Origin: Paracoccaceae bacterium
Lineage (GTDB): Bacteria > Pseudomonadota > Alphaproteobacteria > Rhodobacterales > Rhodobacteraceae
Length of the DNA stretch: 38,445 bases
Direction of reading: 5' to 3'
Assembly: GCA_015487165.1 (NCBI GenBank)
Contig: WFQE01000074.1
Coordinates: forward strand, 1 to 38,445
Shown: positions 2,110-29,182 of the stretch, one piece after another
Position numbering within the stretch: the first letter of the stretch is position 1
How the letters are laid out: each line of letters opens with the position of its first letter
Notes under the pieces: model-generated
Told to the model about the DNA's origin: nothing
Seen by the model: only the letters and a program-made list of their open reading frames with translations
Database searches by the model: none
Position numbers and translations under genes: made by a program

Positions 2110-2139
2110 TTGCTTTACATTCGCATATACTAATATATA
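2110..2139 (+). promoter_or_regulatory. predicted dsr promoter with overlapping ArsR-type operator
   Basis: TTGCTT (2110-2115), 18 bases, then TATATA (2134-2139) resembles a sigma-70 promoter reading towards dsrA. Its spacer holds a palindrome, ATTC-GCATATAC-TAAT at 2119-2134, matching its own reverse complement at 12 of 16 positions. This is one base away from ATTC-N8-GAAT, the operator known for the persulfide-responsive repressor SqrR. A repressor here would block RNA polymerase directly. The leader to dsrA would be about 155 bases. The rest of the 2018-2299 gap shows only the hairpin listed next. The site could also influence the divergent dioxygenase operon. Confidence 0.5.
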
Positions 2140-2154
2140 AAACTCAACATGGGA

Positions 2155-2180
2155 AACACCAATTTGGTTTGGTCGGTGTT
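2155..2180 (+). promoter_or_regulatory. inverted repeat in the dsrA leader
   Basis: AACACC (2155-2160) and GGTGTT (2175-2180) are perfect complements enclosing 14 bases; an inner ACCAA-T-TTGGT palindrome lies at 2158-2168 and competes with it. It lies downstream of the predicted promoter, so it could fold in the 5' leader or be a second protein-binding site. Short and unproven. Confidence 0.25.
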
Positions 2181-2299
2181 ATGATAGGCGCCACGGGTAC
2201 CGGATCAATAATGGCCTTCAGGGCTTCGTTTCGATGGCCCGATATTCCAAAGGCAGTCCGCACGGCCGTGACTGTTTGTAACAAGAGGGAGACAATGTC

Positions 2300-3598
2300 A
2301 TGAAAGATGGCGAAACGGCAGACAAGAAGGTAGCTGAGGGTCAACACCCGACACCGATGCTGGACGAACTCGAGGGAGGCAACTGGCCGAGTTTTGTCAC
2401 CGGTCTGAAGCGCCTGCGCGATTCCAAGGGTGAACGCTACGCCCCCATGATGAACGACCTCCTGGGACAGCTTGAGCATTCCTACGAAGAGCAGATGGGT
2501 TTCTGGAAAGGCGGCACGCTTTCGGTATTCGGATATGGTGGTGGCATCATTCCGCGTTTCTCGGAAGTGGCCGACCAATATCCGGAATCGAAAGAATTCC
2601 ACACCCTTCGCGTGATGCCGCCCCCGGGGTTCCATTACACAACCGAAGTTCTGCGCAAGATGTGCGACATCTGGGAACGTCATGGCTCGGGCCTGATCGC
2701 GTTCCACGGACAGTCGGGCGACATCATGTTCCAGGGCTGCACGAGCGAAGCCACCCAGGCCGCGTTTGACGAGCTGAATGAGCTGGGCTTTGACCTTGGC
2801 GGTGCGGGCCCCGCGCTGCGGACTGCAATGAGCTGCGTGGGACAGGCACGCTGCGAGCAGTCCTGCTATGACGAAGGCAAGGCGCATCGTCGGGTTATCA
2901 ACAAGTTCCTCGACGAAATGCACCGGCCGGCGCTGCCCTACAAGTTCAAGTTCAAGTTCTCGGGCTGCGGCAATGACTGCGTGAACGCCATCCATCGCGC
3001 CGACTTTGCGGTGATCGGCACCTGGCGCGACGACATCAAGATCGACCAGGAAAAGGTCAAGGAGCATGTCGCCAATGTGGGCCGCAAATACACCATCGAC
3101 ACGGTGGTCAACATGTGCCCGACGCGCGCGATTTCGCTGAATGACGACGACACGCTGGAAATCGACAACAAGTCTTGCGTACGCTGCATGCACTGCATCA
3201 ACGTCATGACCAAGGCTCTGTCGCCTGGCGACGACCGCGGGGCCTCGATCCTGATCGGCGGCAAGCGTGCGCTGAAGGTTGGCGACATGATGGGCATCAT
3301 GATCAAGCCCTTCATCAAGCTCGAAACCGAAGAAGACTGGGAGGAGCTGGAAGACTTTGCAGAGGCTTGCATCGAGTTCTTCGCCGACAACGCGCTTGAG
3401 CACGAGCGTATCGGTGAAACCATCGATCGCGTGGGCCTGCCGGCCTTCCTCGAGGCTGTCGGTGTCGAGGCCGATCCGAACATGGTCAATCATCCGCGGA
3501 CGTCCTGCTATGTGCGTACCGACGACTTTGATGAAGAAGCGGCCAAGTGGTTCGAGCGCAAGGCGCTTGATGCCGGCATGACCGTGGCGTCAGAATAA
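2300..3598 (+). CDS. dsrA: reverse-type dissimilatory sulfite reductase, alpha subunit
   Basis: The 432-residue product carries the siroheme-[4Fe-4S] cysteines C179, C185, C223 and C227 (C-X5-C and C-X3-C) and an inserted ferredoxin domain with C273, C293, C296 and C299. This is the pattern of DsrA. With DsrB it forms the cytoplasmic alpha2beta2 enzyme that in sulfur oxidisers releases sulfite from DsrC-bound persulfide sulfur. GGGAG stands about 9 bases upstream of the ATG; an earlier out-of-frame ATG at 2295 hits a stop immediately. It heads the operon that runs to dsrN. The gene set around it (dsrEFH, dsrL, no dsrD) marks the oxidative direction. Length is normal for the family. Confidence 0.98.
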   Translation: MKDGETADKKVAEGQHPTPMLDELEGGNWPSFVTGLKRLRDSKGERYAPMMNDLLGQLEHSYEEQMGFWKGGTLSVFGYGGGIIPRFSEVADQYPESKEFHTLRVMPPPGFHYTTEVLRKMCDIWERHGSGLIAFHGQSGDIMFQGCTSEATQAAFDELNELGFDLGGAGPALRTAMSCVGQARCEQSCYDEGKAHRRVINKFLDEMHRPALPYKFKFKFSGCGNDCVNAIHRADFAVIGTWRDDIKIDQEKVKEHVANVGRKYTIDTVVNMCPTRAISLNDDDTLEIDNKSCVRCMHCINVMTKALSPGDDRGASILIGGKRALKVGDMMGIMIKPFIKLETEEDWEELEDFAEACIEFFADNALEHERIGETIDRVGLPAFLEAVGVEADPNMVNHPRTSCYVRTDDFDEEAAKWFERKALDAGMTVASE

Positions 3599-3617
3599 GC
3601 AGAAAACTGAAGAGGGG

Positions 3618-3641
3618 GCTTCCCCGCCGCGTGCGGGGAGC
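3618..3641 (+). promoter_or_regulatory. intercistronic hairpin between dsrA and dsrB
   Basis: TCCCCGC (3621-3627) pairs perfectly with GCGGGGA (3633-3639) around a five-base loop, extended by GCT/AGC with one bulged T. No T-run follows, so it is not a simple terminator; an mRNA processing or stability element is more likely. dsrB has its own GGGAG site after it. Confidence 0.5.
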
Positions 3642-3665
3642 TTCTTCCCAAGGGAGAACAGCGAT

Positions 3666-4748
3666 ATGAGCGAAGTGAAAGAAACGCCCCGCGAGGCGAT
3701 TGAATCCGGCGTCCCGGATCACCTGCAATACATGCACCCGATGCTGAAGCGCAATCTGGGCAAATGGGCCTGGCACGAGCGCCCCCGTCACGGTGTGCTG
3801 CGTCACGTCACCAAGGACGGCGAAGACGTCTTTACCGTGCGCGCCGGCACCCAACGTCAGATGGATGTCTATACCATACGCAAGCTGTGTGACATTGCCG
3901 ACGAGTATGGTGACGGCCATGTGCGTTTCACCACCCGTTCGAATATCGAGTTCATCGTGGAAGACCAGGCCAAGGTCGATCCTCTGATTGAAGAGCTTCA
4001 GGCGAATGGTTTCCCTGTTGGCGGCACCGGAGCGTCGGTTTCCATGATCTCCCATACGCAGGGCTGGTTGCACTGCGACATTCCTGGGACCGATGCCTCC
4101 GGCGTTGTCAAGTCGATGATGGACATGCTCCACGAGGAATTCGTCAACGAAAACATGCCCAACCGCGTGCGTATTACGACCTCGTGCTGCCAGATCAACT
4201 GTGGTGGCCAGGGCGATATTGCGATCAACGTGCAGTACACCAAGCCGCCCAAGATCAACCACGATCTGGTTGCCAATGTGTGTGAACGCCCCGCCGTTGT
4301 GGCCCGTTGCCCGGTTGCCGCCATTCGCCCGGCGATCGTTGACGGCAAGCCTTCGCTGGAAGTCGATGAAAAGAAATGCGTCTGCTGCGGTGCCTGCTAT
4401 CCGCCGTGCCCGCCGATGCAGATCAACGGCAAGGAAAGCACCAAGATCGCCATCTGGGTTGGCGGCAAACACTCGAACGCGCGTTCGAAGCCGACCTTCC
4501 ACAAGCTGGCCGTTGCCAACCTGCCCAACAACCCGCCCCACTGGCCGGAAGTTGCGGATGTGGTGAAGAAGATCATCACCGCCTACAAGGAAGACGCGCA
4601 ACACTGGGAGCGCATGGGTGAGTGGATCGAGCGGATCGGTTGGAACCGTTTCTTCGATCTGACCGGACTGGCCTTTACCAAGCACCACCTGGATACCTGG
4701 ACCGGTGCCCGCAAGACCCTGAACATGTCTGCGCATGTGCGCTTCTGA
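3666..4748 (+). CDS. dsrB: reverse-type dissimilatory sulfite reductase, beta subunit
   Basis: The 360-residue product has the DsrB siroheme/cluster cysteines: C137, the C174-C175 pair and C179 in the TTSCCQINCGGQGDI stretch. Its ferredoxin domain has C215 and a CVCCGACYPPC run starting at C238. DsrB holds the catalytically active siroheme in characterised enzymes and forms the active site with DsrA; DsrC docks its C-terminal arm between the subunits. The ATG has GGGAG upstream. It lies 67 bases after dsrA, the gap being occupied by a hairpin. Nothing is truncated and the key residues are present. Confidence 0.98.
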   Translation: MSEVKETPREAIESGVPDHLQYMHPMLKRNLGKWAWHERPRHGVLRHVTKDGEDVFTVRAGTQRQMDVYTIRKLCDIADEYGDGHVRFTTRSNIEFIVEDQAKVDPLIEELQANGFPVGGTGASVSMISHTQGWLHCDIPGTDASGVVKSMMDMLHEEFVNENMPNRVRITTSCCQINCGGQGDIAINVQYTKPPKINHDLVANVCERPAVVARCPVAAIRPAIVDGKPSLEVDEKKCVCCGACYPPCPPMQINGKESTKIAIWVGGKHSNARSKPTFHKLAVANLPNNPPHWPEVADVVKKIITAYKEDAQHWERMGEWIERIGWNRFFDLTGLAFTKHHLDTWTGARKTLNMSAHVRF

Positions 4749-4760
4749 GGAGTGAGAACC

Positions 4761-5153
4761 GTGAAATTCGGAGTCGTCGTCAGCGAAGGGCCTTACACCC
4801 ACGAAGCCTCGGATACGGCCTACAACTTTGTAAAGGCCGCTATCGAGGCGGGGCATGAGGTTCCCAGGGTGTTCTTTTATCACGACGGGGTGAATGTCGG
4901 CACGCGCCTGACAGTCCCCCCGCAGGATGATCGCAATATCCAGGAAAACTGGTCAGCCATTGCCAAGGAACATGGCATCGATCTTGTCGTCTGCATCGCC
5001 GCGGCCCAGCGCCGCGGGATCCTGGACGAGAACGAAGCCAAGCGCCAGGGCAAGGATGCCGACAATATCGCCGAAGGCTTCCGGATTTCCGGTCTCGGAC
5101 AACTGATCGAAATGGGCATCCAGACAGATCGTCTGATGATGTTCGGCGACTGA
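4761..5153 (+). CDS. dsrE: sulfur relay protein DsrE (persulfide carrier subunit)
   Basis: I start this gene at the GTG at 4761, with AGGAG 8 bases upstream, not at the earlier in-frame GTG at 4752 that overlaps the ribosome site. This gives 130 residues, the usual length. Cysteine 78 in IDLVVCIAAAQRRG falls at the same number as the essential Cys78 of Allochromatium vinosum DsrE. DsrE, DsrF and DsrH form a cytoplasmic hexamer; DsrE receives sulfur from TusA and hands it to DsrC. It lies 12 bases after dsrB, so it is co-transcribed and probably translationally coupled. DsrEFH is a marker of sulfur oxidisers, absent from sulfate reducers. Confidence 0.97.
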   Translation: MKFGVVVSEGPYTHEASDTAYNFVKAAIEAGHEVPRVFFYHDGVNVGTRLTVPPQDDRNIQENWSAIAKEHGIDLVVCIAAAQRRGILDENEAKRQGKDADNIAEGFRISGLGQLIEMGIQTDRLMMFGD

Positions 5154-5165
5154 GGAGGATCTGTG

Positions 5166-5576
5166 ATGGAAGATGGAATCAAGAAATTCCTCTACGTGAA
5201 CCGCAAGGCGCCCTACGGGACGATCTATGCCCTGGAAGCCCTCGAAGTGGTGCTGATCGGCGCGGCCTTCGATCAGGATGTCAGCCTTGCCTTCCTCGAT
5301 GACGGGGTGTTCCAGCTGACCAAGGGCCAGAACACTGACGGTATTGGCGTCAAGAACTTTTCTCCCACCTTCCGGGCGCTGGGCGACTATGACGTGAACA
5401 AGCTTTATGTCGAGCGCGAGTCCCTTGAAGAGCGCGGCCTGACCGAGGACGACCTTCAGGAGATCATGTATGAGGATGAAGATGACGACTGGGCCGAAAA
5501 GCCTTCGATCCGCATCATCAGCCGGGCGGAAATGGCCGACCTAATGCATGACCAAGACGTTATCCTGAGCTTCTGA
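5166..5576 (+). CDS. dsrF: sulfur relay protein DsrF (structural subunit)
   Basis: ATG at 5166 follows a GAGGAG site; the in-frame GTG at 5163 is too close to be preferred. The 136-residue product starts MEDGIKKFLYVNRKAPYGTI, a typical DsrE/TusC-family fold start. It contains no cysteine at all, in line with DsrF being the non-catalytic partner in the DsrE2F2H2 complex. Residues 88-105 are strongly acidic (LTEDDLQEIMYEDEDDDW), perhaps a docking surface. It sits 12 bases after dsrE and 14 before dsrH. Confidence 0.96.
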   Translation: MEDGIKKFLYVNRKAPYGTIYALEALEVVLIGAAFDQDVSLAFLDDGVFQLTKGQNTDGIGVKNFSPTFRALGDYDVNKLYVERESLEERGLTEDDLQEIMYEDEDDDWAEKPSIRIISRAEMADLMHDQDVILSF

Positions 5577-5590
5577 GGGAAGGAAAGATC

Positions 5591-5899
5591 ATGTCCACAT
5601 TGCACACCGTGAACAAGTCGCCGTTCTCTACCCAGTCGCTGTTGAGCTGCATCAACCACGCCAAGGATGGCGATGCGATTCTGATGATCGAGGATGGTGT
5701 CTATGGTGCCGCGGCCGGAACCGGCGTTGCAAGCGTCGTGGCCGAAAAGGCCGGGGCCATCAAGTTTTACGTTCTGGCGCCGGATCTGGCGGCCCGCGGC
5801 ATCGACACTTCGCGCCTTCTGGATGGCGTCGAGGCGGTGGATTACGCCGGCTTTGTCGCCCTGGCCGCCGAACATGACCGGGCGCAGGCCTGGCTTTGA
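5591..5899 (+). CDS. dsrH: sulfur relay protein DsrH
   Basis: A 102-residue TusB/DsrH-family protein. Cys20 in LLSCINHAKDGDAILMIEDG is at the position of the conserved Cys20 of A. vinosum DsrH. It is the third component of the DsrEFH hexamer, which shuttles persulfide between TusA/DsrE2 and DsrC in the cytoplasm. A GGGAAGGAAAG ribosome site precedes the ATG and the gene lies directly after dsrF. A 48-base gap follows before dsrC, the first sizeable break since dsrB. Confidence 0.96.
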   Translation: MSTLHTVNKSPFSTQSLLSCINHAKDGDAILMIEDGVYGAAAGTGVASVVAEKAGAIKFYVLAPDLAARGIDTSRLLDGVEAVDYAGFVALAAEHDRAQAWL

Positions 5900-5947
5900 G
5901 ATTGCAACCGATCCGTATGGGGGATCACTAACCGAAAGGAAAAGGAA

Positions 5948-6280
5948 ATGTCCTACGAAGTAAACGGTCAGACCGTCGAGCATGACGAGGAAGGGTACAT
6001 CACCAACCTCAACGACTGGTCCAAGGAACTGGCAGAAGTCATCGCCAAGCAGGAAGAGATCGAAATGACCGACGAGCACTGGGCCGTGGTCAACTTCCTG
6101 CGTGACTACTACGAGGAATATCAGATCGCTCCGGCGGTGCGCGTTCTCATCAAGGCCATCAAAAAGCAGATGGGCCCGGAAATCGGCAACAACAAGTACA
6201 TGTACGAGCTGTTCCCGTATGGCCCTGCCAAGCAGGCCTGTAAGATCGCTGGTCTGCCCAAGCCTACCGGCTGCGTCTGA
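5948..6280 (+). CDS. dsrC: DsrC, sulfur-carrying substrate protein of DsrAB
   Basis: The 110-residue protein ends in the flexible arm CKIAGLPKPTGCV, with C98 and the penultimate C109 eleven residues apart, the two redox cysteines needed for persulfide and trisulfide chemistry. This separates true DsrC from TusE-like relatives that lack the upstream cysteine. DsrC takes sulfur from DsrEFH, presents it to DsrAB for oxidation to sulfite and exchanges electrons with the DsrMKJOP complex. AAGGAAAAGGAA just before the ATG should give strong translation, fitting its usual high abundance. A hairpin follows the stop. Confidence 0.98.
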   Translation: MSYEVNGQTVEHDEEGYITNLNDWSKELAEVIAKQEEIEMTDEHWAVVNFLRDYYEEYQIAPAVRVLIKAIKKQMGPEIGNNKYMYELFPYGPAKQACKIAGLPKPTGCV

Positions 6281-6288
6281 TCGCGCCG

Positions 6289-6320
6289 GTCTCTGAGAAA
6301 ACAAAAACCAGTTCAGAGAC
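6289..6320 (+). promoter_or_regulatory. intercistronic hairpin between dsrC and dsrM
   Basis: GTCTCTGA (6289-6296) is perfectly complementary to TCAGAGAC (6313-6320), with a 16-base A-rich loop. It starts 9 bases after the dsrC stop and ends just before the dsrM ribosome site (GGGAGGAG). No T-run, so probably a 3' stabiliser or processing site that lets dsrC accumulate above the membrane-complex genes. Confidence 0.5.
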
Positions 6321-6341
6321 ACATCACGGGAGGAGTCCGAA

Positions 6342-7064
6342 GTGTTGTCAACGCTTTACGCAGTGCTGTTTTATGTTGCCACGATCCTGCTTGTAACAGG
6401 ATTGGCGGTGAAAATCCGGCAATATGCGCGGACTCCGGCCCCGCTCAAGATACCGACGACCCCCGCCCCGACAACGCGTTCGGGGGTCTTCTGGCGCATG
6501 TTCCGCGAGGTGGTTTTCTTTGAAAGCCTGTTCAAGTCGAACAAGTGGATCTGGCTGTTTGGCTATATGTTCCACGGCGCCATGCTGCTGGTGCTCTTGC
6601 GGCACCTGCGCTATTTTACCCAGCCGGTCTGGTGGTGGGTCGAACTGATTCAGCCCTTCGGCATCTACGCGTCCTTTGCCATGGCTCTTGGCCTGCTGGG
6701 CCTGTGGGCACGGCGCTTTCTGGTCGAGCGGATCCGCTATATCAGCAACCCGTCCGATCACCTCATGTTGGCCCTGTTGCTGGGTATCGTGCTCAGCGGC
6801 ATGAACATGAAATTCCTTACGCCGACCGACATCATCAGCGTGAAGGTGTTCTTCCTGGGGCTCTTGCGCTTTCAGATCAACGAGTTGCCCGATACGCCGG
6901 CGTTGCTGGTCCACCTGGGTCTTGTCGCAACCCTGATGATCATCTTCCCGATCTCCAAGCTGCTGCATGCGCCAGGCGTCTTCTTCAGCCCGACGCGGAA
7001 CCAGGTCGACAACCCCCGCGAAAAGCGGCACCTCGCCCCCTGGGCGGCGGAACTGGAAAAATAA
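6342..7064 (+). CDS. dsrM: DsrM, membrane cytochrome b subunit of DsrMKJOP
   Basis: Starts with GTG at 6342 after AGGAG. The 240-residue product is an integral membrane protein with about five hydrophobic helices (around residues 3-22, 70-90, 105-125, 142-160 and 185-205) and several helix histidines (for example in YMFHGAMLLVLLRHLRYF) suited to ligate heme b, as in the related NarI family. With DsrK it forms the quinone-reactive half of the complex that handles DsrC electrons. The C-terminus is cytoplasmic and charged. It lies 15 bases before dsrK. Confidence 0.95.
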   Translation: MLSTLYAVLFYVATILLVTGLAVKIRQYARTPAPLKIPTTPAPTTRSGVFWRMFREVVFFESLFKSNKWIWLFGYMFHGAMLLVLLRHLRYFTQPVWWWVELIQPFGIYASFAMALGLLGLWARRFLVERIRYISNPSDHLMLALLLGIVLSGMNMKFLTPTDIISVKVFFLGLLRFQINELPDTPALLVHLGLVATLMIIFPISKLLHAPGVFFSPTRNQVDNPREKRHLAPWAAELEK

Positions 7065-7079
7065 GGGAGGTAGGGGAAC

Positions 7080-8663
7080 ATGGCACCGCTCGACGATAGC
7101 GCAAAGAAGAAACCCGCAGAAATGATGGATGTGCGCGGGCCCGATGGTGACCCGCTGGAAATTCCCAAGTTCGCTTGCGAGGCAATGCGCGAAAGCGAAC
7201 CCTACCCGGCCTATCCCGAACACAACCTCAAGCTGGGCTTTCCGGGCGAGCTGATCGACAACTGGCAGGAAGTTGCCATTGCCAAGATCGGCGAGTTGGC
7301 GAAAAAGAACCGGGCCTTTCAGGTCTATCTGGATGCCTGTGTGAAATGCGGGGCCTGCACCGACAAATGCCATTATTTCCTTGGCTCGGGCGACCCCAAG
7401 AACATGCCGGTCGCGCGTCAGGATCTGCTGCGCAGCGTTTACCGCCGCTATTACACCTTTGCCGGTAAATACTTTCCCTGGCTGGTTGGCGCGCGTGATC
7501 TGACCAAGGAAGTGCTGGATGAATGGTATGCCTATTACCACCAGTGCAGCCAGTGCCGCCGCTGTTCGGTGTTCTGCCCCTATGGCATTGATACTGCCGA
7601 AATTTCCATGGCCGCACGCGAGATCATGGACAGCATCGGGCTTGGCCAGAAATACTGCAACGAGATCATCGGCAAGGTCAAGGATGTGGGGAACAACCTT
7701 GGTCTTCAGGAAAAGGCGCTGGCAGCGACGCTGGAAGGCCTGGAAGAGGATATCGAGGACGATACCGGCGTCAGCGTCCGCATTCCGCTTGACGAAAAGG
7801 GTGCCGATATCCTGCTGGTTACCCCTTCTGCCGACTTCTTTGCCGAACCCCATATCGAAGGCTTGATTGGCTATGCCAAGGTGTTCCACCAGGCCGGCGT
7901 AAGCTGGACGCTTTCGTCCTATGCTTCAGAGGCGGCAAATTTTGGTCTGTTCATCGGCTCTTATGAAAACATGCGTGATGTGTCGTTGCGCATCCGCAAG
8001 GCGGCCGAGGATCTGGGCGTCAAGAGGATCATCTTTGGCGAATGCGGCCATGCGTGGCGTGTTGCTTACAGTTTCCTCAACACTCTGGCGGGACCGTTCG
8101 ACTTTCTGGATCAGAACTATCCGATCCCGCAGCATATTCTGGAATTCACCTGGAACGAAATCCAGAAGGGCACGCTCAAGCTGGACAAGTCCCGCAATGA
8201 CCACATCAGGCTGACCTATCACGACAGCTGCAACGTGGCGCGGGCCTCGCGCATGGGCGACAAGCCGGGCGGCCAGTTCGAGATCCCGCGCAACGTGCTC
8301 AAGGCCGTGTGCAACCACTATTACGACATGGACCGCGACACCATCATGGAAAGCACCGTTTGCTGCGGTGGCGGTGGCGGTCTGTTGACCGACGAGATCA
8401 TGGACCTGCGGGTCAAGGGAGCGGGCCCTCGGATGAAGGCCCTGAAACAGGTGACCGACGATTTTGGTGTCACCCACATGGCGGCCATCTGCGCGATCTG
8501 CAAGACGCAGTTCTCGAAGGTGATGCCGAAATACGGATACGGCATGGATTCCATCCTGTCGGTTCACCAACTGGTATCGAACGCCATCATCCTTGATGGC
8601 CAGGAAGATGGAGAGGATGCGGCGCCCCAAGGGGATGCGGCAGCAGCGGAGGCAAACCAATGA
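7080..8663 (+). CDS. dsrK: DsrK, HdrD-like iron-sulfur subunit of DsrMKJOP
   Basis: The 527-residue protein has two N-terminal [4Fe-4S] motifs (C87/C90/C93/C97 and C156/C159/C162/C166). Its C-terminal CCG domain, with C384, C428-C429, C471 and C474, is the non-cubane [4Fe-4S] catalytic site of heterodisulfide-reductase-like proteins. DsrK oxidises or reduces the cysteine pair of DsrC at the cytoplasmic face of the membrane. The last 20 residues are an Ala/Asp/Glu-rich tail. Its stop overlaps the dsrL start (ATGA at 8660-8663), so the two are translationally coupled. Confidence 0.97.
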   Translation: MAPLDDSAKKKPAEMMDVRGPDGDPLEIPKFACEAMRESEPYPAYPEHNLKLGFPGELIDNWQEVAIAKIGELAKKNRAFQVYLDACVKCGACTDKCHYFLGSGDPKNMPVARQDLLRSVYRRYYTFAGKYFPWLVGARDLTKEVLDEWYAYYHQCSQCRRCSVFCPYGIDTAEISMAAREIMDSIGLGQKYCNEIIGKVKDVGNNLGLQEKALAATLEGLEEDIEDDTGVSVRIPLDEKGADILLVTPSADFFAEPHIEGLIGYAKVFHQAGVSWTLSSYASEAANFGLFIGSYENMRDVSLRIRKAAEDLGVKRIIFGECGHAWRVAYSFLNTLAGPFDFLDQNYPIPQHILEFTWNEIQKGTLKLDKSRNDHIRLTYHDSCNVARASRMGDKPGGQFEIPRNVLKAVCNHYYDMDRDTIMESTVCCGGGGGLLTDEIMDLRVKGAGPRMKALKQVTDDFGVTHMAAICAICKTQFSKVMPKYGYGMDSILSVHQLVSNAIILDGQEDGEDAAPQGDAAAAEANQ

Positions 8664-10609: not shown

Positions 10610-10611
10610 GC

Positions 10612-11049
10612 ATGAAACGTCTGCTGGCTTTACTTCTGATTGTCACGGGTCTGGCCTCGGCACCCCTTCATGCCGGCAGCGACCTGTGGCCGAACATTCC
10701 CAAGGCCACCGGCAAGCCGCACCCCGAGGGCAACCTGTTCTGGCGCAAGAACCACATGAAGCTGCTTGTGCATGATCGTGACCTGACCATGCGCAAGGGT
10801 GACCGGAATATCCGTGCCAGCCTGAAAGAGTGCATTCAGTGCCATGCCGTCAAGGACGAGCAGGGCCAGGCGGTCGGGGTTGATGATCCGCGGCATTTCT
10901 GCCGGGCCTGCCACGACTTTGCGGCGGTCAAGGTCGATTGCTTCATGTGCCACAACTCCAAACCCGAGGAATCGTCTCAGGCGCTTCTTGACCGGCGCCT
11001 GCCGGACACCAATGAACTTGCCGCCTATCTGAAGGAGGCCGCGCAATGA
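10612..11049 (+). CDS. dsrJ: DsrJ, periplasmic triheme cytochrome c
   Basis: ATG at 10612, two bases after the dsrL stop; 145 residues. An N-terminal signal/anchor (MKRLLALLLIVTGLASAPLH) sends it to the periplasm. Three heme c motifs are visible: C74-C77-H78, C97-C100-H101 and C110-C113-H114. Oddly, these six are the only cysteines. A. vinosum DsrJ has a further cysteine (Cys46) implicated as axial ligand of one heme; near the comparable place, before the RKNHMKLL block, this protein has His37. DsrJ couples the periplasmic side of DsrMKJOP to DsrO. Its stop overlaps the dsrO start. Confidence 0.95.
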   Translation: MKRLLALLLIVTGLASAPLHAGSDLWPNIPKATGKPHPEGNLFWRKNHMKLLVHDRDLTMRKGDRNIRASLKECIQCHAVKDEQGQAVGVDDPRHFCRACHDFAAVKVDCFMCHNSKPEESSQALLDRRLPDTNELAAYLKEAAQ

Positions 11050-11807
11050 AACTGCCGGCGTTGAAATTCAGCAAGAAGCCGTCCGAAATGAACCGTCGCG
11101 ATTTTCTGCGCAGCGGTGCGGCGTTGGCGACAGTGACCATCGCACCGGGCGTGACCCTCATGGCGTTTGGCGGCAAGGAAGCCAGCGCCAATGCCGATCC
11201 CGGTAAACGCTGGGGCCTGCTGATCGACGTGAACAAATGTTCCAAGGATTGCAGTGCATGTGTGTCGGCCTGTTCGCAGGAAAACGGCTGGAAACTGCCC
11301 GAAAATCCGGAAACAGACGCCCAGTGGATCCGCAAGGTCGATCTGACCGATAACGCAACCGGGCGCGAGGTCTCCTTGGTCGCAATGTGCCAGCACTGCG
11401 AAGAACCACCCTGTGTCGATGTTTGCCCTACCGGCGCATCCTTCAAGCGCGACGACGGTATCGTGCTGGTTGACAAGCATATCTGCATCGGCTGCCGCTA
11501 TTGCATGATGGCGTGTCCCTACAAGGCGCGTTCGTTCATTCACGAAAACATCGTTGACGAACAAAAGACCTGGGCCCCGCGCGGCAAGGGAACCGTGGAA
11601 AGCTGCACCCTGTGTGTGCACCGTGTCGATGCCGGTGGTACACCCGCCTGTGTCGAGGCCTGCACTGCCACGGGCAATGGCGCCATGATCTTTGGTGATC
11701 TCAAGGATCCCGAAAGCGAGATTTCCAAGGCGCTGGCAAAATATCCGTCAACCGCCCTGCGCGATGACCTGGGGTTGAACCCCGGCGTGCGCTATCAGAA
11801 TCTTTAA
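11046..11807 (+). CDS. dsrO: DsrO, periplasmic iron-sulfur subunit of DsrMKJOP
   Basis: The 253-residue protein has a Tat signal (NRRDFLRSGAALATVTIAPG, starting near residue 16) and four cysteine clusters of the NrfC/ferredoxin type: CSKDCSACVSAC, CQHCEEPPCVDVCP, CIGCRYCMMACP and CTLCVHR with a downstream CVEAC. It therefore folds in the cytoplasm with its clusters and is exported. It should relay electrons between DsrJ and the membrane protein DsrP. ATGA overlap with dsrJ; dsrP follows after 12 bases. Confidence 0.96.
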   Translation: MKLPALKFSKKPSEMNRRDFLRSGAALATVTIAPGVTLMAFGGKEASANADPGKRWGLLIDVNKCSKDCSACVSACSQENGWKLPENPETDAQWIRKVDLTDNATGREVSLVAMCQHCEEPPCVDVCPTGASFKRDDGIVLVDKHICIGCRYCMMACPYKARSFIHENIVDEQKTWAPRGKGTVESCTLCVHRVDAGGTPACVEACTATGNGAMIFGDLKDPESEISKALAKYPSTALRDDLGLNPGVRYQNL

Positions 11808-11819
11808 GGGGGCAGGAAC

Positions 11820-13019
11820 ATGGAACGCATGATCTATCGGGAAATTCCGGCCAACCGGACGATATTGCAGGCTGCAGTTCTGCTGGGGGTCTTTATCCTG
11901 GCGGCCGCCGGTGCCGTGTTCTACATGGAAGAACATGGCCACATTGTCACCGGCATGAACAACCAGATCGTCTGGGGGCTGCCCCATGTCTTTGCGATCT
12001 TTCTGATCGTTGCCGCGTCGGGCGCGCTGAACATCGCCTCGATTGCCAGCGTGTTTGGCAAAACGCCTTACAAGCCTCTGTCGCGCCTGTCGGCCTTGCT
12101 GGCAATGGCCCTTCTGGCGGGTGGCCTTGCGGTTCTGGTGCTTGATCTGGGCCGCCCTGATCGCCTGATCGTTGCCATGACCAAGTATAATTTCAGCTCG
12201 ATCTTTGCGTGGAACATCTATCTGTATAACGGGTTCTTCGCGATTGTGGGCGTATATCTGTTTACCCAGATGGCCCGCGGGATGCCTGCAAAAGCCGTCA
12301 AGACAGCCGGTTTCGTGGCCTTTGTCTGGCGTTTGGCGCTGACCACCGGCACGGGGTCGATCTTTGGCTGGCTGGTTGCGCGTTCAGCCTATGAATCCGC
12401 CATCATGGCGCCGCTGTTCATCGTGATGTCCTTTGCCTTTGGGCTGGCTGTGTTCATCCTTGTGCTGACCTTCACCACAAGGGTCACCGACCGCAAGCTT
12501 GGCCCCAAGTTGCTGCGGCGCCTTGGCCGCCTGCTGGGCATATTCGCGGCGCTGGTGCTGTATTTCACCGCCGTTCAGCATCTGACCAGCAACTATTGGG
12601 CCCGCAATGGCGGGATCGAAAGGTTCATCCTGTCTGACGGGGGGATCTATACAACCCTGTTCTGGGTCGGGCAGGTCATTATCGGCGGGCTGATCCCGAT
12701 GGCATTGGTCTTTCACCCGACCGGCGGGTCAAAACCGGCCTCGATCATTCTGGCCTCGGTGCTGGTCGTGCTGGGCGGGTTCGCGCAGGTCTATGTTATC
12801 GTCATTGGTGGACAGGCCTTCCCGCTGGATACCTTCCCGGGCTTTACCGCCAGTTCCAGCTTTGCCGACGGTGTGGTGCACAACTATTCGCCCAGCCTGC
12901 CCGAGTTTCTGCTTGGCATGGGCGGCGTTGCCCTGGCGCTTGCAATCACGGGTTTTGGGATGAAGGTGTTGCGCATCTTGCCGACAAACCTGTCGGATGC
13001 GAATGTAGGACAACAGTGA
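11820..13019 (+). CDS. dsrP: DsrP, NrfD-like membrane subunit of DsrMKJOP
   Basis: A 399-residue, very hydrophobic protein with about ten membrane helices, of the NrfD/PsrC family. These subunits exchange electrons with the quinone pool and partner an NrfC-like iron-sulfur protein, here DsrO. A GGGGGCAGGA ribosome site precedes the ATG. It completes the five-subunit complex. Its TGA is followed within three bases by a perfect hairpin, the largest structural break in the operon. Confidence 0.95.
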   Translation: MERMIYREIPANRTILQAAVLLGVFILAAAGAVFYMEEHGHIVTGMNNQIVWGLPHVFAIFLIVAASGALNIASIASVFGKTPYKPLSRLSALLAMALLAGGLAVLVLDLGRPDRLIVAMTKYNFSSIFAWNIYLYNGFFAIVGVYLFTQMARGMPAKAVKTAGFVAFVWRLALTTGTGSIFGWLVARSAYESAIMAPLFIVMSFAFGLAVFILVLTFTTRVTDRKLGPKLLRRLGRLLGIFAALVLYFTAVQHLTSNYWARNGGIERFILSDGGIYTTLFWVGQVIIGGLIPMALVFHPTGGSKPASIILASVLVVLGGFAQVYVIVIGGQAFPLDTFPGFTASSSFADGVVHNYSPSLPEFLLGMGGVALALAITGFGMKVLRILPTNLSDANVGQQ

Positions 13020-13021
13020 AT

Positions 13022-13042
13022 CCGGGCGCGTCTGGCGCCCGG
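13022..13042 (+). promoter_or_regulatory. perfect hairpin directly after dsrP
   Basis: CCGGGCGC (13022-13029) and GCGCCCGG (13035-13042) form an 8-bp all-GC stem with a five-base loop, beginning 2 bases after the dsrP stop. No T-run follows, so it may attenuate transcription or protect the 3' end of the dsrA-P message before the last two genes. Confidence 0.5.
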
Positions 13043-13063
13043 CACACGGAGTCAGGACAAGCC

Positions 13064-14107
13064 ATGCAGCAAGCACACCCGTTTTCGCGATTCGTTGCCA
13101 TTCTCGGCCGCGGCAAGACAAAACAGCGTCATCTGACACTGGAAGAATCGCGCGAGGCCATGTCGATGATCTTGCGGGGCGAGGCGCTGCCCGAACAGAT
13201 TGGCGCCTTTCTGATGCTGCTGCGCCTCAAGGAAGAGGCCCCCGAGGAAATCGCGGGCTTTACCCTTGGCGCGCGCGAAACATTCGATTTGCCGGAAAAC
13301 ATCCCCGAGATTGATCTCGACTGGTCGTCCTATGCCGGCAAGCGGATTCAGCTGCCTTGGTTCCTGCTGTCGGTTCTGGCGTTGTCCAATGCCGGCTATC
13401 GGGTTTTCATGCACGGTACCGAGGGGCACACGCCAGGGCGTGTCTATACCAGCGAGGCACTCGCGCGGTTGGGCTTTCCGTCCGCCGGTAGCCTGCAAGA
13501 GGCGGCCAATCACATAAACGCCCGCAATTTTGCCTATGTTCCGCTTGAGGTTCTCAGCCCCAGGCTGCGCGAGATGATCGATTTGCGCCCGATCCTGGGC
13601 CTGCGCTCGCCAGTGCATTCGTTCTCGCGGATGCTCAATCCGTTCAATGCGCCGACGATGATGCAGGGGATTTTCCACCGTGGTTTCATGGATATCCACG
13701 CAGGTGCAGCGCAAATACTGGGGCAGCCCCGCATGGCGGTCTTCCGCGGCGAAGGCGGCGAGATCGAGCGCCGCCCCAACAAGCCCACTGTCGTCTGGAC
13801 AACCCTTGGCGATGCCGAGCCGTCGTCTGAAACATGGCCCGCATTGCTGGCTGATCCGCACCAGGAGGCCGATGAAAACATGCAGATCAATGATCTGATC
13901 GACATGTGGAGGGGCACTGCCGACAACCCCTATGCCGAGGCCTCGATCACCGGCACGCTGGCGATCACGCTGCGGACCATGGGCAAGGCCGACAGCATCG
14001 AGGAAGCGCAAGCGCAGGCCGAACATCTGTGGGCGGCGCGGGACAAGGATTATCTGCCCCTGAAAGGAACCGGCGATGTCCCGCTTTCTGATCGCCGCAG
14101 CGCATAA
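13064..14107 (+). CDS. TrpD2/YbiB-like 'glycosyl transferase family' protein
   Basis: I use the ATG at 13064 (AGGA 7 bases upstream) because the longer reading from GTG 13016 runs through the hairpin; this gives 347 residues. The helical N-terminal domain (LTLEESREAMSMILRGEALP, residues 25 to 44) and overall layout are those of anthranilate phosphoribosyltransferase (TrpD). The glycine-rich PRPP-binding motif of TrpD is not there, replaced by AGKRIQLPWFLLSVLALS. It should therefore belong to the non-tryptophan branch (TrpD2/YbiB), some of which bind nucleic acids. Such genes occur near siroheme and nitrite-reduction genes, as far as I recall, so a link to siroheme enzymes is plausible. Its end overlaps dsrN by 32 bases. 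Function not established. Confidence 0.8.
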   Translation: MQQAHPFSRFVAILGRGKTKQRHLTLEESREAMSMILRGEALPEQIGAFLMLLRLKEEAPEEIAGFTLGARETFDLPENIPEIDLDWSSYAGKRIQLPWFLLSVLALSNAGYRVFMHGTEGHTPGRVYTSEALARLGFPSAGSLQEAANHINARNFAYVPLEVLSPRLREMIDLRPILGLRSPVHSFSRMLNPFNAPTMMQGIFHRGFMDIHAGAAQILGQPRMAVFRGEGGEIERRPNKPTVVWTTLGDAEPSSETWPALLADPHQEADENMQINDLIDMWRGTADNPYAEASITGTLAITLRTMGKADSIEEAQAQAEHLWAARDKDYLPLKGTGDVPLSDRRSA

Positions 14108-15461
14108 ATCCTCGGGCAAGACAGTCGTATCCACGGGGCTGGCCCGCGCACTTGGCGAATATGGCCGCAAGGTGCAGACCTTCAAGAAGGGGCCGGATTA
14201 TATCGACCCGATGTGGCTGTCAGCCGCCAGCGGGCGGTCGTGCTATAACCTTGATTTCAACACGATGGGCCGGGACGAACTGCGCGACTTTTTCGCAAGC
14301 CGTTCCGTGGGTGGCGATCTTTCGCTGATCGAGGCCAACAAGGGGCTGTTCGACGGTGTTGATCTGAAAGGCACTGATTCCAACGCGGCGCTGGCCAAGC
14401 TGTTGAAGGCGCCAGTTGTTCTGGTGGTCGATACCGGCGGCATGACGCGGGGGATTGCCCCGCTGCTTTGCGGCTATACGCGGTTCGACCCGGACGTGAA
14501 CATTGCCGGTGTGATCCTCAACAAGGTTGGCGGTCCACGTCACGAAGCCAAGCTGCGCGCCGCAGTCGAAACCTATACCGACCTGCCGGTTCTGGGCGCG
14601 GTTTGGCGCAACGGCGAACTTGAAATAGGCGAACGCCATCTGGGCCTGACGACGCCGGCGGAAACCGGCCATGTGCGCCGGATGATCGAGATCTTTGGCC
14701 GGGTGATGGCCGATTCGGTGGATCTGGCGCGTCTGGCGGCACTGGCCGATCGCGCGCCAGGCCTTGAGGCGGGCACGCACGCGACCACAGGGGGGGGTGG
14801 TCCCTCACCGAAGGGTGGTGCCGGCAAGATCCGTATCGGTATCGCTCAGGACACGGCCTTTGGTTTCTACTACCCCGATGACCTGGAGGCCTTTGCGGCC
14901 GAGGGTGCAGAGCTCGTGCCTTTTGATACGCTCAATGATGTCGCTCTGCCCGATATTGATGGTCTGTTCATTGGTGGGGGGTTTCCCGAAACACAGGCCG
15001 AGGGCCTGTCGCGCAACAAGCCCATGCGTGAGGCGATCAGACAGGTGATCGAGGCCGGCATGCCCGCTTATGCCGAATGTGGCGGGTTGATGTATCTGTG
15101 TGAAAGCCTGTCCTGGAACGGCCGGCAATGGCCCATGGTTGGCGTGGTGCCGGGCAGGGCCGAAATGTGTGAACGTCCGCAGGGCAGGGGGTATGCGCGG
15201 TTTGAAAACACCGATCTGCACCCGTGGGAAAGGCCCGGTGGCGAAGTGCAGGCACACGAGTTTCACTATGCCAGAATAGCTGACCTGAAAGGCGATGTGC
15301 GATTTGCCCGCAATATCCGTCGGGGTGCTGGTGTTGACGGCCAGCATGATGGCATCGTGGTGCATAACCTGCTGGCCGGATTCTGCCACTTGCGCACCAG
15401 CCGGGCCAACCCCTGGGTTCGCCACTTTGTCGATTTCGTCAGACGCCACCGGCAAAAATGA
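14076..15461 (+). CDS. dsrN: DsrN, siroheme amidase (CbiA-like glutamine amidotransferase)
   Basis: A 461-residue cobyrinate a,c-diamide synthase homologue. The N-terminal ATPase domain starts with SRFLIAAAHKSSGKTVVSTG, a modified P-loop, and the C-terminal half is a class I amidotransferase with its nucleophile cysteine in YAECGGLMYL. In sulfur oxidisers DsrN is held to amidate siroheme to the siroheme amide used by DsrAB. AAGGAAC lies just upstream of the ATG inside the preceding gene (32-base overlap). A Gly/Pro linker near residues 235-250 (TGGGGPSPKGGAG) joins the two halves. It is the last gene of the operon and is followed at once by a terminator. dsrR and dsrS, found after dsrN in Chromatiaceae, are absent. 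Confidence 0.93.
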   Translation: MSRFLIAAAHKSSGKTVVSTGLARALGEYGRKVQTFKKGPDYIDPMWLSAASGRSCYNLDFNTMGRDELRDFFASRSVGGDLSLIEANKGLFDGVDLKGTDSNAALAKLLKAPVVLVVDTGGMTRGIAPLLCGYTRFDPDVNIAGVILNKVGGPRHEAKLRAAVETYTDLPVLGAVWRNGELEIGERHLGLTTPAETGHVRRMIEIFGRVMADSVDLARLAALADRAPGLEAGTHATTGGGGPSPKGGAGKIRIGIAQDTAFGFYYPDDLEAFAAEGAELVPFDTLNDVALPDIDGLFIGGGFPETQAEGLSRNKPMREAIRQVIEAGMPAYAECGGLMYLCESLSWNGRQWPMVGVVPGRAEMCERPQGRGYARFENTDLHPWERPGGEVQAHEFHYARIADLKGDVRFARNIRRGAGVDGQHDGIVVHNLLAGFCHLRTSRANPWVRHFVDFVRRHRQK

Positions 15462-15487
15462 AAACCCCCGCCTTTCGACGGGGGTTT
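15462..15487. terminator. bidirectional terminator between dsrN and tusA
   Basis: AAACCCCCG (15462-15470) and CGGGGGTTT (15479-15487) form a 9-bp perfect stem with an 8-base loop. A flanking T or A run on either strand makes it work for both converging units. It begins directly after the dsrN stop. Confidence 0.85.
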
Positions 15488-15511
15488 GAATATTCGTGAC
15501 AGGAAGTCAGG

Positions 15512-15736
15512 TCAGACGCGCTTGATTTCAAAGCGGTAAACATTGCCTTCATTGGAAGAGCTGACCAACTCGTTACCCGTCTGGTTGCAGAACGCGGCAA
15601 AGTCGGCAACCGATCCCGGATCGGTGGATGTCACCACAAGGATCTCGCCCTGCGGCACCGATTTCAGGGCCTTCTTGGCCTTGAGGATCGGAAGCGGGCA
15701 GTTGAGCCCTTCTGCGTTCAGTACATGTTCAGCCAT
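15512..15736 (-). CDS. tusA: TusA, sulfur carrier protein
   Basis: The ATG at 15736 gives 74 residues with Cys13 in the signature N-CPLPILKAKKAL of TusA; an AAAGGGAAAG ribosome site precedes it. TusA carries persulfide sulfur in the cytoplasm and in oxidisers passes it to DsrE. A second cysteine, C50, is not part of the signature. A longer frame upstream lacks family character. It lies 43 bases after dsrE2 with a short GCCGC-TAA-GCGGC hairpin between (15767-15779), and both genes run towards dsrN. The rhodanese often found with this pair is absent. Confidence 0.95.
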   Translation of the reverse strand: MAEHVLNAEGLNCPLPILKAKKALKSVPQGEILVVTSTDPGSVADFAAFCNQTGNELVSSSNEGNVYRFEIKRV

Positions 15737-15779
15737 TCGTCTTTCCCTTTTCCTTTGAATGGTTCTGCCGCTAAGCGGC

Positions 15780-16292
15780 TCAGATATAGAGGTTGATGTC
15801 CGACTTGGTGGCGGTTTCCATATAGGTTGCCGCGCCACCGATCTCGATGCCGTCAATCATGTCTTCCTGTTTGAGCTCGAACAGGTCCAGCGTCATCTGG
15901 CAGGCAATAATGCGGATATCCAGATCGACCGCAGCTTCGCGCAGCTCGGGGATCGAGGCCACACCCTTTTTCTTGATGAGGTTTTTCATCATCGTCGTGG
16001 CCATCCGGTCCACACCAGGGATGACCGACACGATATTGGGCATCGCCATGTGCATGCCCATCATCGGCATTTCCATCGCCGGGTTGCCCAGTGTCGAGAT
16101 CTTGAGATCAAGATCCTTTTTCAGCAGTGCAAGGCCGTAGAAGGTAAAGAACATCGTGACATTGATGTCCATCGCCGCCGCAGTGGTGGCCAGAATGAAC
16201 GGGGGATACGCCCAATCGAGCGTGCCCTTGGTCACGATGATAGACATGCTCTTGGCGTTGTCCATTTCCTCGTGGGTTACGTTGTCCGGCAT
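15780..16292 (-). CDS. dsrE2: DsrE2, membrane-linked DsrE-family sulfurtransferase partner of TusA
   Basis: A 170-residue protein of the DsrE/F/H-like 'DsrE2' family. It has one cysteine, C131 in IRIIACQMTLDLFELKQEDM, the typical active-site context, and hydrophobic, methionine-rich stretches (residues 28-55 and 72-92) that would place it at the membrane. GGGAAGAGAC lies before the ATG. The tusA-dsrE2 pair is known from many sulfur oxidisers with dsr or sHdr genes as an early sulfur-trafficking step. It is divergent from the ArsR gene, from which a 220-base regulatory gap separates it. Confidence 0.93.
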   Translation of the reverse strand: MPDNVTHEEMDNAKSMSIIVTKGTLDWAYPPFILATTAAAMDINVTMFFTFYGLALLKKDLDLKISTLGNPAMEMPMMGMHMAMPNIVSVIPGVDRMATTMMKNLIKKKGVASIPELREAAVDLDIRIIACQMTLDLFELKQEDMIDGIEIGGAATYMETATKSDINLYI

Positions 16293-16326
16293 GTCTCTTC
16301 CCTCCTGACCGCTGTGAAGGTGGATT

Positions 16327-16357
16327 ATGATACTTTCACTTATTAGAAATATTGAAT
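16327..16357 (-). promoter_or_regulatory. predicted dsrE2-tusA promoter with overlapping ArsR-type operator
   Basis: On the minus strand TTCAAT (16356-16351), 18 bases, then TATCAT (16332-16327) forms a promoter 35 bases before the dsrE2 ATG. The palindrome ATTA-GAAATATT-GAAT at 16342-16357 overlaps its -35 and spacer; it is one base off the SqrR consensus ATTC-N8-GAAT and has the same spacing as the dsrA site. It could also control arsR. In the remainder of the 16293-16512 gap I see only AT-rich sequence. Confidence 0.55.
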
Positions 16358-16512
16358 ACTAAAAATGCCCTTGCCGGTCAAGGAAGGCGGTTCCCGAAAC
16401 GGTGATATGTGAATGACGGGGCTGAAATATTGCTGGAATGGTATGTATAACCATGTGTTTTCCTGATAAATGTCCGAAAAACTCCTATCGAACACAATAG
16501 AGAGAGCAACAG

Positions 16513-16833
16513 ATGGCCGACTCGGGAACCATGGATATCTCGGAACTCAAGGATAACGCCAGCAAGGCCAGCGCATTGCTAAAGGTCATGGCGAACCAGT
16601 CGCGGTTGATGATTCTGTGCAACCTTCTCGAAGGTGAAAAATCCGTGCAGGAACTTCAGGGCCATGTGGGGTTGAGCCAGTCCGCGCTGTCGCAGCAGCT
16701 TGCTATCTTGCGGGGGCAACATCTGGTCAAGACACGTCGGGTTGCCCAGTCTGTCTATTATTCCCTCGCGAGCCCCGAGGCCGAGACGCTGATCGCGACC
16801 CTGTACCAGATATACTGTGCCGACCAGAAGTAA
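16513..16833 (+). CDS. ArsR-family repressor, probable persulfide sensor (SqrR/BigR/SoxR type)
   Basis: A 106-residue winged-helix protein; recognition region QGHVGLSQSALSQQLAILRG, residues 50 to 69. It has exactly two cysteines, C36 (LMILCNLL) and C102 (IYCADQK), 66 residues apart. This is the same spacing as C41 and C107 of Rhodobacter capsulatus SqrR, which form a tetrasulfide bridge with reactive sulfur species and then release DNA. No metal-binding CxC of ArsR/SmtB sensors is present. It stands between two sulfur units and near SqrR-like palindromes, so it probably represses dsr, dsrE2-tusA and the transporter gene until sulfide or polysulfide appears. RBS AGAGAG. Confidence 0.88.
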   Translation: MADSGTMDISELKDNASKASALLKVMANQSRLMILCNLLEGEKSVQELQGHVGLSQSALSQQLAILRGQHLVKTRRVAQSVYYSLASPEAETLIATLYQIYCADQK

Positions 16834-16966
16834 GATCGGCACGGCTTGCCCGGTCGGGCGACCGAGAGCACCCGAGATTTTTTCCAAAGGGTTTCCACCA
16901 TCCCCCTGATGTCTGCCATCAGGCGGCTCAGCGCCACCGATGGTGTAGCAACCTGTGCACAAAATC

Positions 16967-17004
16967 TTGTAGCCATTCCGGACGCAATATAATATGCCAA
17001 TATT
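16967..17004 (+). promoter_or_regulatory. predicted promoter of the YeeE-type gene with AT-rich palindrome
   Basis: TTGTAG (16967-16972), 17 bases, then TAATAT (16990-16995) is a good sigma-70 match. A perfect inverted repeat AATAT-GCCA-ATATT (16991-17004) covers the -10 and likely start. It does not fit ATTC-N8-GAAT, so ArsR binding is less certain than at the other two sites. The upstream half of the 16834-17082 gap shows nothing convincing. Confidence 0.5.
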
Positions 17005-17082
17005 TGATTATGTTTTCGCGCGGGGCGAAAACACGCCACCGGACAGAATAATACCGGGGCGGGGCGACAAGGGGGGAAACGC

Positions 17083-19352: not shown

Positions 19353-19444
19353 GGATTCGTCCCAGTCCTGCTATTTCATGCATAGATTAGAATGTTTTTA
19401 AATGTAAGACAAGCAAGGTGGCCCGTTGGTGTCACGCGCGGCCG

Positions 19445-20374: not shown

Positions 20375-20475
20375 AAATTTTTCTAAAAGCGTTTGTGATT
20401 TTTTTCAATTTCCTTTTTGTCACGGAACCGTCAAATCAGGGCCAGACATCGCATGACAACCAGAGGATCGCCCTT
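20375..20475. promoter_or_regulatory. cbbR-cbbF divergent control region
   Basis: A short AT-rich gap between the divergent regulator and the cbb operon must hold both promoters and the CbbR sites. LysR-like T-N11-A and TNA elements occur (for example TAA at 20384 and TGA at 20396), but none fits the usual TNA-N7-TNA spacing exactly, so I do not mark an operator. Confidence 0.45.
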
Positions 20476-21495: not shown

Positions 21496-21505
21496 GGATC
21501 ACGAC

Positions 21506-22378: not shown

Positions 22379-22390
22379 AGGACGACACTG

Positions 22391-24364: not shown

Positions 24365-24385
24365 GTACAAGGACGAGAGACACCC

Positions 24386-26589: not shown

Positions 26590-26603
26590 GGGAGAACAGG
26601 AAA

Positions 26604-27653: not shown

Positions 27654-27662
27654 ACGAAAAAG

Positions 27663-27702
27663 GAAACGGCGCTTGCCCCTTCCACAGACCAAGCGCCGTT
27701 TC
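27663..27702 (+). promoter_or_regulatory. 13-bp perfect hairpin between cbbA and cbbM
   Basis: GAAACGGCGCTTG (27663-27675) and CAAGCGCCGTTTC (27690-27702) pair without mismatch around a 14-base loop. Only a weak A-rich stretch follows, no T-run. It could partly terminate or, by shielding the message, allow cbbM to be expressed at a different level from the upstream genes. The cbbM ribosome site AAGGAGAG comes 16 bases later. Confidence 0.65.
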
Positions 27703-27731
27703 ACTGAAAACCAACCCAAGGAGAGACCCCC

Positions 27732-29120: not shown

Positions 29121-29131
29121 TTACGACGAAC

Positions 29132-29155: not shown

Positions 29156-29182
29156 ATCCCGATACCCCTGAAGGAGGCCATC

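Follow-up and report, generated by a model that had tools for sequence, protein, structure and literature searches.

A putative operator shared by reverse dsr, dsrE2-tusA and other sulfur genes of Rhodobacteraceae, and the ArsR-type repressors that may read it

Two palindromes upstream of sulfur oxidation genes

The window analyzed here is the entire contig WFQE01000074.1 (C74; 38,445 nucleotides) of the 3.4 Mb draft genome of a Paracoccaceae bacterium (GCA_015487165.1), and it carries genes of reverse-Dsr sulfur oxidation, a gene for an ArsR-type regulator and two putative operators. Gene identities were assigned from NCBIfam and Pfam profile matches. The dsrA gene lies at 2300..3598 on the + strand (NCBIfam TIGR02064, 560.3 bits, over the cut-off), and its product is 99% identical to the DsrA of a Paracoccaceae metagenome-assembled genome (MAG; record JAUZRU010000015.1). 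On the - strand are tusA at 15512..15739 (Pfam TusA PF01206, 78.7 bits) and dsrE2 at 15780..16292 (NCBIfam NF047629 SulfCarrDsrE2, 227.5 bits, cut-off 210), followed by arsR at 16513..16833 on the + strand (Pfam HTH_5, 45.3 bits, cut-off 22). The first putative operator, TTTACATTC-N8-TAATATATA, is upstream of dsrA at 2114..2139 (+ strand); the second, which reads TTTAGTATTC-N8-TAATA on the - strand, is upstream of dsrE2-tusA at 16337..16363, between dsrE2 and arsR.

The cores of both were first noticed in a sequence-only reading of this DNA as the palindromes ATTC-N8-TAAT (2119-2134) and ATTA-N8-GAAT (16342-16357). Both are present as described, and each is one base from ATTC-N8-GAAT, the site deduced for the repressor SqrR in PMC9774250. 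Across the window, ATTC-N8-GAAT at up to one mismatch occurs 12 times against 16.4 expected, a count reached in 89 of 100 shuffles and thus not above chance. In 3000 shuffles of each region, one or more such matches arose with a frequency of 0.136 upstream of dsrA and 0.177 between dsrE2 and arsR. Since the palindromes do not exceed chance in a single sequence, the case for them rests on conservation in relatives.

Regions upstream of dsrA were taken from the best 80 of 239 GTDB loci, and dsrE2 upstream regions were obtained by whole-genome searches of relatives. Upstream of dsrA in near relatives, the flanks have diverged and TTTACATTC-N8-TAATATA is conserved between them. At up to three mismatches, this motif was found in 52 of the 80 loci, with 47 of them within L039-L097 at 131-195 bp ahead of dsrA; 20 shuffles per region gave means of 4.2-6.5 mismatches and a minimum of 3, so that a lone three-mismatch site is not decisive. 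For motif discovery, the dsrA set was reduced from 51 to 47 regions by removing near-copies, and the dsrE2 set from 49 to 43 by removing near-copies and four Hyphomicrobiales rows (L227, L230, L233 and L234); G394 and G411 contribute no dsrE2 upstream region. De novo discovery returned TACATTCgatTATt.taATgTATA for dsrA (log likelihood ratio, logLR, of 695 in 47 regions against 83-91 when shuffled) and tTTtgTATTCAAtaATt.tAATAc for dsrE2 (411 in 43 regions against 82-91).

These two motifs, learned independently, coincide in RYATTC-N8-TAATRT. Their matrices correlate with an r of 0.762, a value matched by 0 of 1000 column permutations, and their outer columns are palindromic and dimer-like (equaled or exceeded by 11 and 31 of 5000 permutations). 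TAAT is commoner than GAAT as the right half of the family motif. At the 99% level of the null, the dsrE2 matrix detected 41 of the 47 dsrA regions and the dsrA matrix 25 of the 43 dsrE2 regions. Within the window itself, the dsrA site was detected by the dsrE2 matrix (19.0, null 99% 14.4), and the dsrE2 site was missed by the dsrA matrix (3.7, null 99% 6.4). The matching independent motifs bear out the claim of the sequence-only reading that one type of operator joins dsrA, dsrE2-tusA and the arsR neighborhood, and the sites are conserved in related dsr-bearing Rhodobacteraceae, where it had named a lack of conservation as refuting.

Among Rhodobacteraceae-type genomes, the operator is present before dsrA in 46 of 46 and before dsrE2 in 41 of 44, as scored with a matrix trained on the same sites and with some near-copies included (e.g., the window and G394); the cross-detection counts of 41/47 and 25/43 are the out-of-sample counterpart. 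Three dsrE2 regions fall under the threshold. The failures of G402, which has unknown bases within the site, and of G409, lost to trimming, look technical, while G412 is a miss.

Occurrences across genomes and further candidate sites

The operator is specific in a genomic setting. Over 50 dsr loci (593,729 bases), scores of the dsrA matrix above 11 bits numbered 83 in the 300 bp ahead of dsrA (both strands; the training region) and 6 elsewhere, all 6 before an apbC-like gene. In the genome of the window, the pattern RYATTCNNNNATNNTAATA at up to one mismatch occurs at four places, against 0 in the control: before dsrA, dsrE2, a sqr-like gene and a DUF302 gene. Since the dsrA and dsrE2 sites served to build this pattern, its independent part is two of the four. 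The match at the sqr-like gene (L202, C92:7483; 23.6 bits) is about 20-44 bp from the gene, which scores 102.7 bits with the type III SQR model, under the cut-off of 525. The other (L206, C245:22921) is about 27 bp before the DUF302 gene, making this a candidate member of a putative sulfur regulon.

In 14 relatives, RYATTCNNNNATNNNAATRT with zero mismatches matched 27 times, at 26 places spread over 11 of the genomes, against 1 in the control. The assigned genes are dsrA (8 places), dsrE2 (1), apbC (1), rhodanese (3), TauE (1), an HlyD-type gene (1), MBL (1), a DsrC-like gene (1) and a fatty acid hydroxylase (1); the remainder comprises genes without a Pfam match (2) and places not assigned (6). 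This pattern was also shaped on dsrA and dsrE2, so its independent part is 17 of the 26 places. In the relative G398 (L287), the strict operator pattern stands before a DsrC-like gene. Section 2.1 of PMC12423496 names sqr, rhd, TauE, RND and YeeE-type genes as targets of ArsR regulators that respond to sulfane sulfur. Because of the other sites before sqr-like, rhodanese, TauE, HlyD-type, MBL and DsrC-like genes, the operator looks to be of the SqrR/SoxR kind.

Two further, weaker candidate operators lie in the window beyond arsR. A YeeE/TsuA-like (SoxT-like) membrane protein gene at 17083..18177 on the + strand (NCBIfam TsuA, 107.8 bits, under the cut-off of 400) is preceded by a candidate third operator at 16991..17012 (- strand; 16988-17014 as the place scored with the matrices), a variant that is of the ATTC-N8-GCAT type in relatives. 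By separate places in the window, it ranks second with the dsrA matrix (6.2 bits) and third with the dsrE2 matrix (12.8). The variant conserved before this gene in relatives is CAtATTCA.AtATTAGCATaTt (27 regions, logLR 260 against 66-76 when shuffled), and it resembles the operator matrix with an r of 0.55 (6 of 500 permutations as high). The fourth candidate, at 19375..19398 (- strand), is 23-46 bp before an apbC/Mrp-like iron-sulfur carrier gene at 18261..19352 (- strand; NCBIfam PRK11670, 357.8 bits, cut-off 348; Pfam ParA, 344.4 bits), in the gap behind a LysR-type gene. The apbC motif aCATTCAttgATTAGAATGTAa (16 regions, logLR 113 against 60-62) is closer to the operator than the YeeE/TsuA motif, with 0 of 500 permutations matching its likeness, and is itself the weaker of the two; exact ATTC-N8-GAAT occurs before apbC in several relatives. 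The regulon also seems wider than was drawn in the sequence-only reading, with apbC, the YeeE/TsuA-like gene and sqr as putative additions.

The sulfur genes are directly followed at 19445-29878 by the LysR-type gene and, in a row, genes of the Calvin cycle encoding FBPase, PRK, transketolase, GAPDH, PGK, aldolase, the RuBisCO large chain and an epimerase.

The dsrE2-linked ArsR and the choice of repressor

The ArsR protein encoded beside dsrE2 has a winged-helix ArsR/SmtB domain (HTH_5 over its cut-off; NCBIfam HTH_metalloreg, 83.7 against a cut-off of 55), and its PDB matches are chains of HlyU, SqrR, BigR and YgaV. Its Cys36 and Cys102 align with the sensing cysteines of the SqrR chains and of a SoxR-like set. 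In a phylogenetic tree, it groups in a 23-row clade with support of 96/92, to which neither SoxR nor Rhodobacter capsulatus SqrR belongs; Cys36 is present in 23 of the 23 and Cys102 in 17. In the loci of relatives at 54% identity or higher (n = 22), dsrE2 adjoins this arsR in 21, and the 22nd (L146) ends at a contig edge. In a 100-genome sample of the family, the clade was found in G064, G069 and G070, all with dsrA (G069 and G070 duplicate G441 and G443).

Two identities were considered for this protein and set aside. As a BigR equivalog (NCBIfam NF040642), it scores 95.2 bits, under the cut-off of 155. It is also not SoxR, as its gene adjoins dsrE2-tusA, it belongs to a separate clade and the genome has its own SoxR as a different gene on C296, adjoining soxS- and soxV-like genes. 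A BigR-like ArsR elsewhere in the genome (C146, L002) is encoded beside a gene for a Blh-like persulfide dioxygenase (408.9 bits, under the cut-off of 625), before which the operator was not found (score -4.4). In four Hyphomicrobiales-type MAGs (L227, L230, L233 and L234), an ArsR is encoded near tusA-dsrE2. The proteins of L227, L230, L234 and L168 (same genome as L233) group in a different clade of the tree, so the linkage of ArsR to tusA-dsrE2 may have arisen twice.

ArsR was searched for in the genomes of 50 of the 80 dsrA loci. Five of these whole genomes (L055, L058, L059, L065 and L070), labeled Hyphomicrobiales or similar, were dropped; L058 is titled Alphaproteobacteria only, and its grouping with Hyphomicrobiales is our assignment. 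With the window counted, the linked ArsR is found in 23 of 46 Rhodobacteraceae-type genomes and is lacking in the other 23. Marimonas lutisalis GH1-19 is a cultured strain with both the linked ArsR and SoxR, and Ruegeria marina and Jhaorihella thermophila are without the linked ArsR. The dsrA operator is present in 23/23 genomes with the linked ArsR and 23/23 without it, and the dsrE2 operator in 21/22 and 20/22, respectively, under the same reservations of matrix training and near-copies. As the operators are kept in genomes without the linked ArsR, the operator is independent of it.

These counts bear on the model of the sequence-only reading, in which a single repressor, the product of the arsR gene next to dsrE2, acts on dsrA, dsrE2-tusA and their neighbors. 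It is the best placed of the alternatives that we weighed: the arsR gene adjoins two of the sites, both cysteines are present, dsrE2 stands beside the linked ArsR in nearly all loci of relatives and the family-sample genomes with the clade all have dsrA. The retention of the dsrA operator, and mostly of the dsrE2 operator, in the half of the genomes that lack this ArsR counts against the model, as does the dsrE2 site shifting with the ArsR when the dsrA site does not, as if the two were shaped by different proteins, a difference that is not significant given kinship. We consider the single-repressor model unlikely, and the claim that the neighboring ArsR is the repressor of dsrA is not supported in that form, SoxR being an equal candidate at the dsrA site. 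By sequence, a match to the window genome's own SoxR was found in 39 of 45 relatives (18/22 with the linked ArsR, 21/23 without); the tree also holds a second SoxR-like clade.

A second alternative, which we judge less likely still, is that there are two similar but separate circuits, with SoxR alone acting on dsrA and the linked ArsR acting only on dsrE2-tusA, the YeeE/TsuA-like gene and itself. The wide presence of SoxR matches is in keeping with this, and so are the differing recognition helices (consensus GLgQStvSQQLAiLRG versus RQAAVSQQLARLR). The dsrE2 site in genomes with the linked ArsR also departs from the dsrA-type consensus (median 2.5 versus 13.7; p 5.7e-5 by Mann-Whitney test); at dsrA, the score is unaffected by the presence of the linked ArsR (p 0.51). 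We rejected this divergence as proof of two regulators, since the DsrA tree gives three supported independent pairs, none opposite, and the sign test is not significant; the score cut-offs of 8 and 10 in this kinship test were picked after the score comparison. Separate circuits also sit poorly with the recognition of 41 of 47 dsrA regions by the dsrE2 matrix, with the differing motif of the soxS-soxV regions described below and with the binding of Hyphomicrobium sHdrR to the fragments also bound by SoxR, as reported in PMC12423496.

An improbable alternative is that the conservation reflects a promoter, or a site bound by an unrelated regulator, in place of an operator of the SqrR family. The sequence-only reading had each palindrome overlapping a predicted promoter core. 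A consensus scan found no sigma-70-like promoter at either site; what stands of that claim is a TTGAC 12-19 bases ahead of ATTC in 31 of 38 scored dsrE2 sites (43 regions in total), so that conservation there may be partly that of a promoter. The spacing of this TTGAC is variable, 0 of 47 dsrA sites have one in range, the element is palindromic and several of the other places fit SqrR-family target classes. Chance palindromes, permitted by the window-only statistics, can be dismissed almost entirely, given that relatives conserve the sites in the same position and given the genome-wide specificity.

A putative sulfur regulon and its known counterparts

The reading that we favor, and regard as probable, is that the sites are putative operators for ArsR repressors with two cysteines (SqrR/SoxR/BigR family) and define a sulfur oxidation regulon that includes reverse dsr. 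Its members would be dsrA, dsrE2-tusA and the sqr-like gene elsewhere in the genome, and probably also the YeeE/TsuA-like transporter gene and apbC. That several paralogues read one common operator seems most likely, in line with the overlapping binding by SoxR and sHdrR reported in Hyphomicrobium. In many of these species, repressors of the SoxR type would most likely read the operator, and lineages like this one have an extra dsrE2-linked paralogue, which would read the dsrE2-tusA site and its neighbors at the least.

In such a regulon, a repressor dimer would sit on RYATTC-N8-(T/G)AATRY, over or beside the promoter, when sulfur is lacking. Oxidation of sulfide or thiosulfate would raise cellular sulfane sulfur, and by analogy with studied relatives, a polysulfide bridge between Cys36 and Cys102 (window ArsR numbering) would release the dimer and allow the genes to be transcribed. 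The YeeE-like protein may feed in the signal, a role that SoxT1B has for SoxR. The ground for persulfide control is family membership. Sites of this persulfide-sensor type, conserved before the same genes in relatives, point to sulfur itself as the likely switch for reverse-Dsr oxidation in this group, although the adjacent repressor gene is missing in half of the relatives.

Several results weigh against this regulon and its reading by SqrR/SoxR-type repressors. In the genome of the window, the only exact match to TTTANATTC-N8-TAATA is the dsrA operator, and the looser pattern at two mismatches gave 10 matches against 9 in the control; it therefore carries no weight beyond the single exact match. 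At the YeeE/TsuA-like gene, a common matrix exceeded the null 99% level in 5 of 27 regions, 2 of them through the neighboring dsrE2 site, and the window was below it (10.3, level 13.0). At apbC, 8 of 16 regions exceeded the level and the window was again below (10.9, level 12.1); with the dsrA matrix, a spot within a TauD-like gene (1947) equals the apbC site at 5.3. Both window sites thus rest on position and conservation. Some words of the dsr operator recur in the de novo motif of 20 soxS-soxV intergenic regions, tc.CTTGAcctATTCACAtATT (e.g., L188, L189), but its similarity to the operator matrix is not significant (equaled in 166 of 500 permutations), although 7 of the 20 regions contain an operator-matrix match above the null 99% level; the differing motif rules these regions out as proof of SoxR binding. 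In G404 and G417, which have no linked ArsR, no ArsR of this kind was found at an E-value of 1e-9 or better, yet the dsrA and dsrE2 sites are kept; our guess is that these genomes are incomplete. Finally, 6 of the 23 linked ArsRs (L162-L167; Maritimibacter and Sinisalibacter type) lack the second cysteine, with IYAPDP or IYVPDP for IYC in the window (Maritimibacter sp. HL-12 has such an orthologue), and these genomes keep the arsR gene and the operators despite the loss.

A broader version of the favored reading, which we hold tentatively and would not go so far as to call probable, takes in this loss. A family-wide persulfide-responsive regulon would extend over reverse dsr in Rhodobacteraceae; a dsr-dedicated repressor clade would have evolved inside it, with the dsrE2 operator drifting along, and one branch, having lost its second cysteine, would have to sense otherwise or be locked on DNA.

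To our knowledge, little is known of how the reverse-Dsr pathway is switched in sulfur oxidizers, and we know of no dsr genes in the SqrR regulon. Titles and abstract beginnings from part of the matching open-access literature held no report of dsr genes under SqrR/SoxR-type control, an absence short of proof, and the target list in section 2.1 of PMC12423496 gives sqr, sox, pdo, rhd, shdr and transporters, with dsr not among them. If the favored reading is true, a single motif would predict the sulfur regulon in dozens of genomes and provide a directly testable switch in cultured strains.

The window ArsR belongs to the same subfamily as BigR, the repressor of the Blh operon and its best NCBIfam model, but it is under the equivalog cut-off and another ArsR of the genome adjoins the Blh-like gene. 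It resembles SqrR, the sulfide-responsive ArsR-type repressor of R. capsulatus (PDB 6O8N in PMC9774590), in its two aligned sensing cysteines and in a sqr-like gene among the putative targets. In contrast, SqrR lies in the SoxR clade and the window ArsR in the dsrE2-linked clade, and the motif here mostly has a TAAT right half where the SqrR site has GAAT, within the same 4-8-4 layout. The linked clade is likewise separate from the genome's own SoxR. In Hyphomicrobium denitrificans, cytoplasmic sulfur oxidation is described as controlled by SoxR and sHdrR, two homologous two-cysteine repressors whose binding overlaps (PMC12423496, PMC10451225), and the YeeE-like SoxT1B as passing the signal to SoxR (PMC11582611). 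The pathway there is sHdr oxidation and here reverse Dsr; in the window, a YeeE/TsuA-like gene stands beside arsR.

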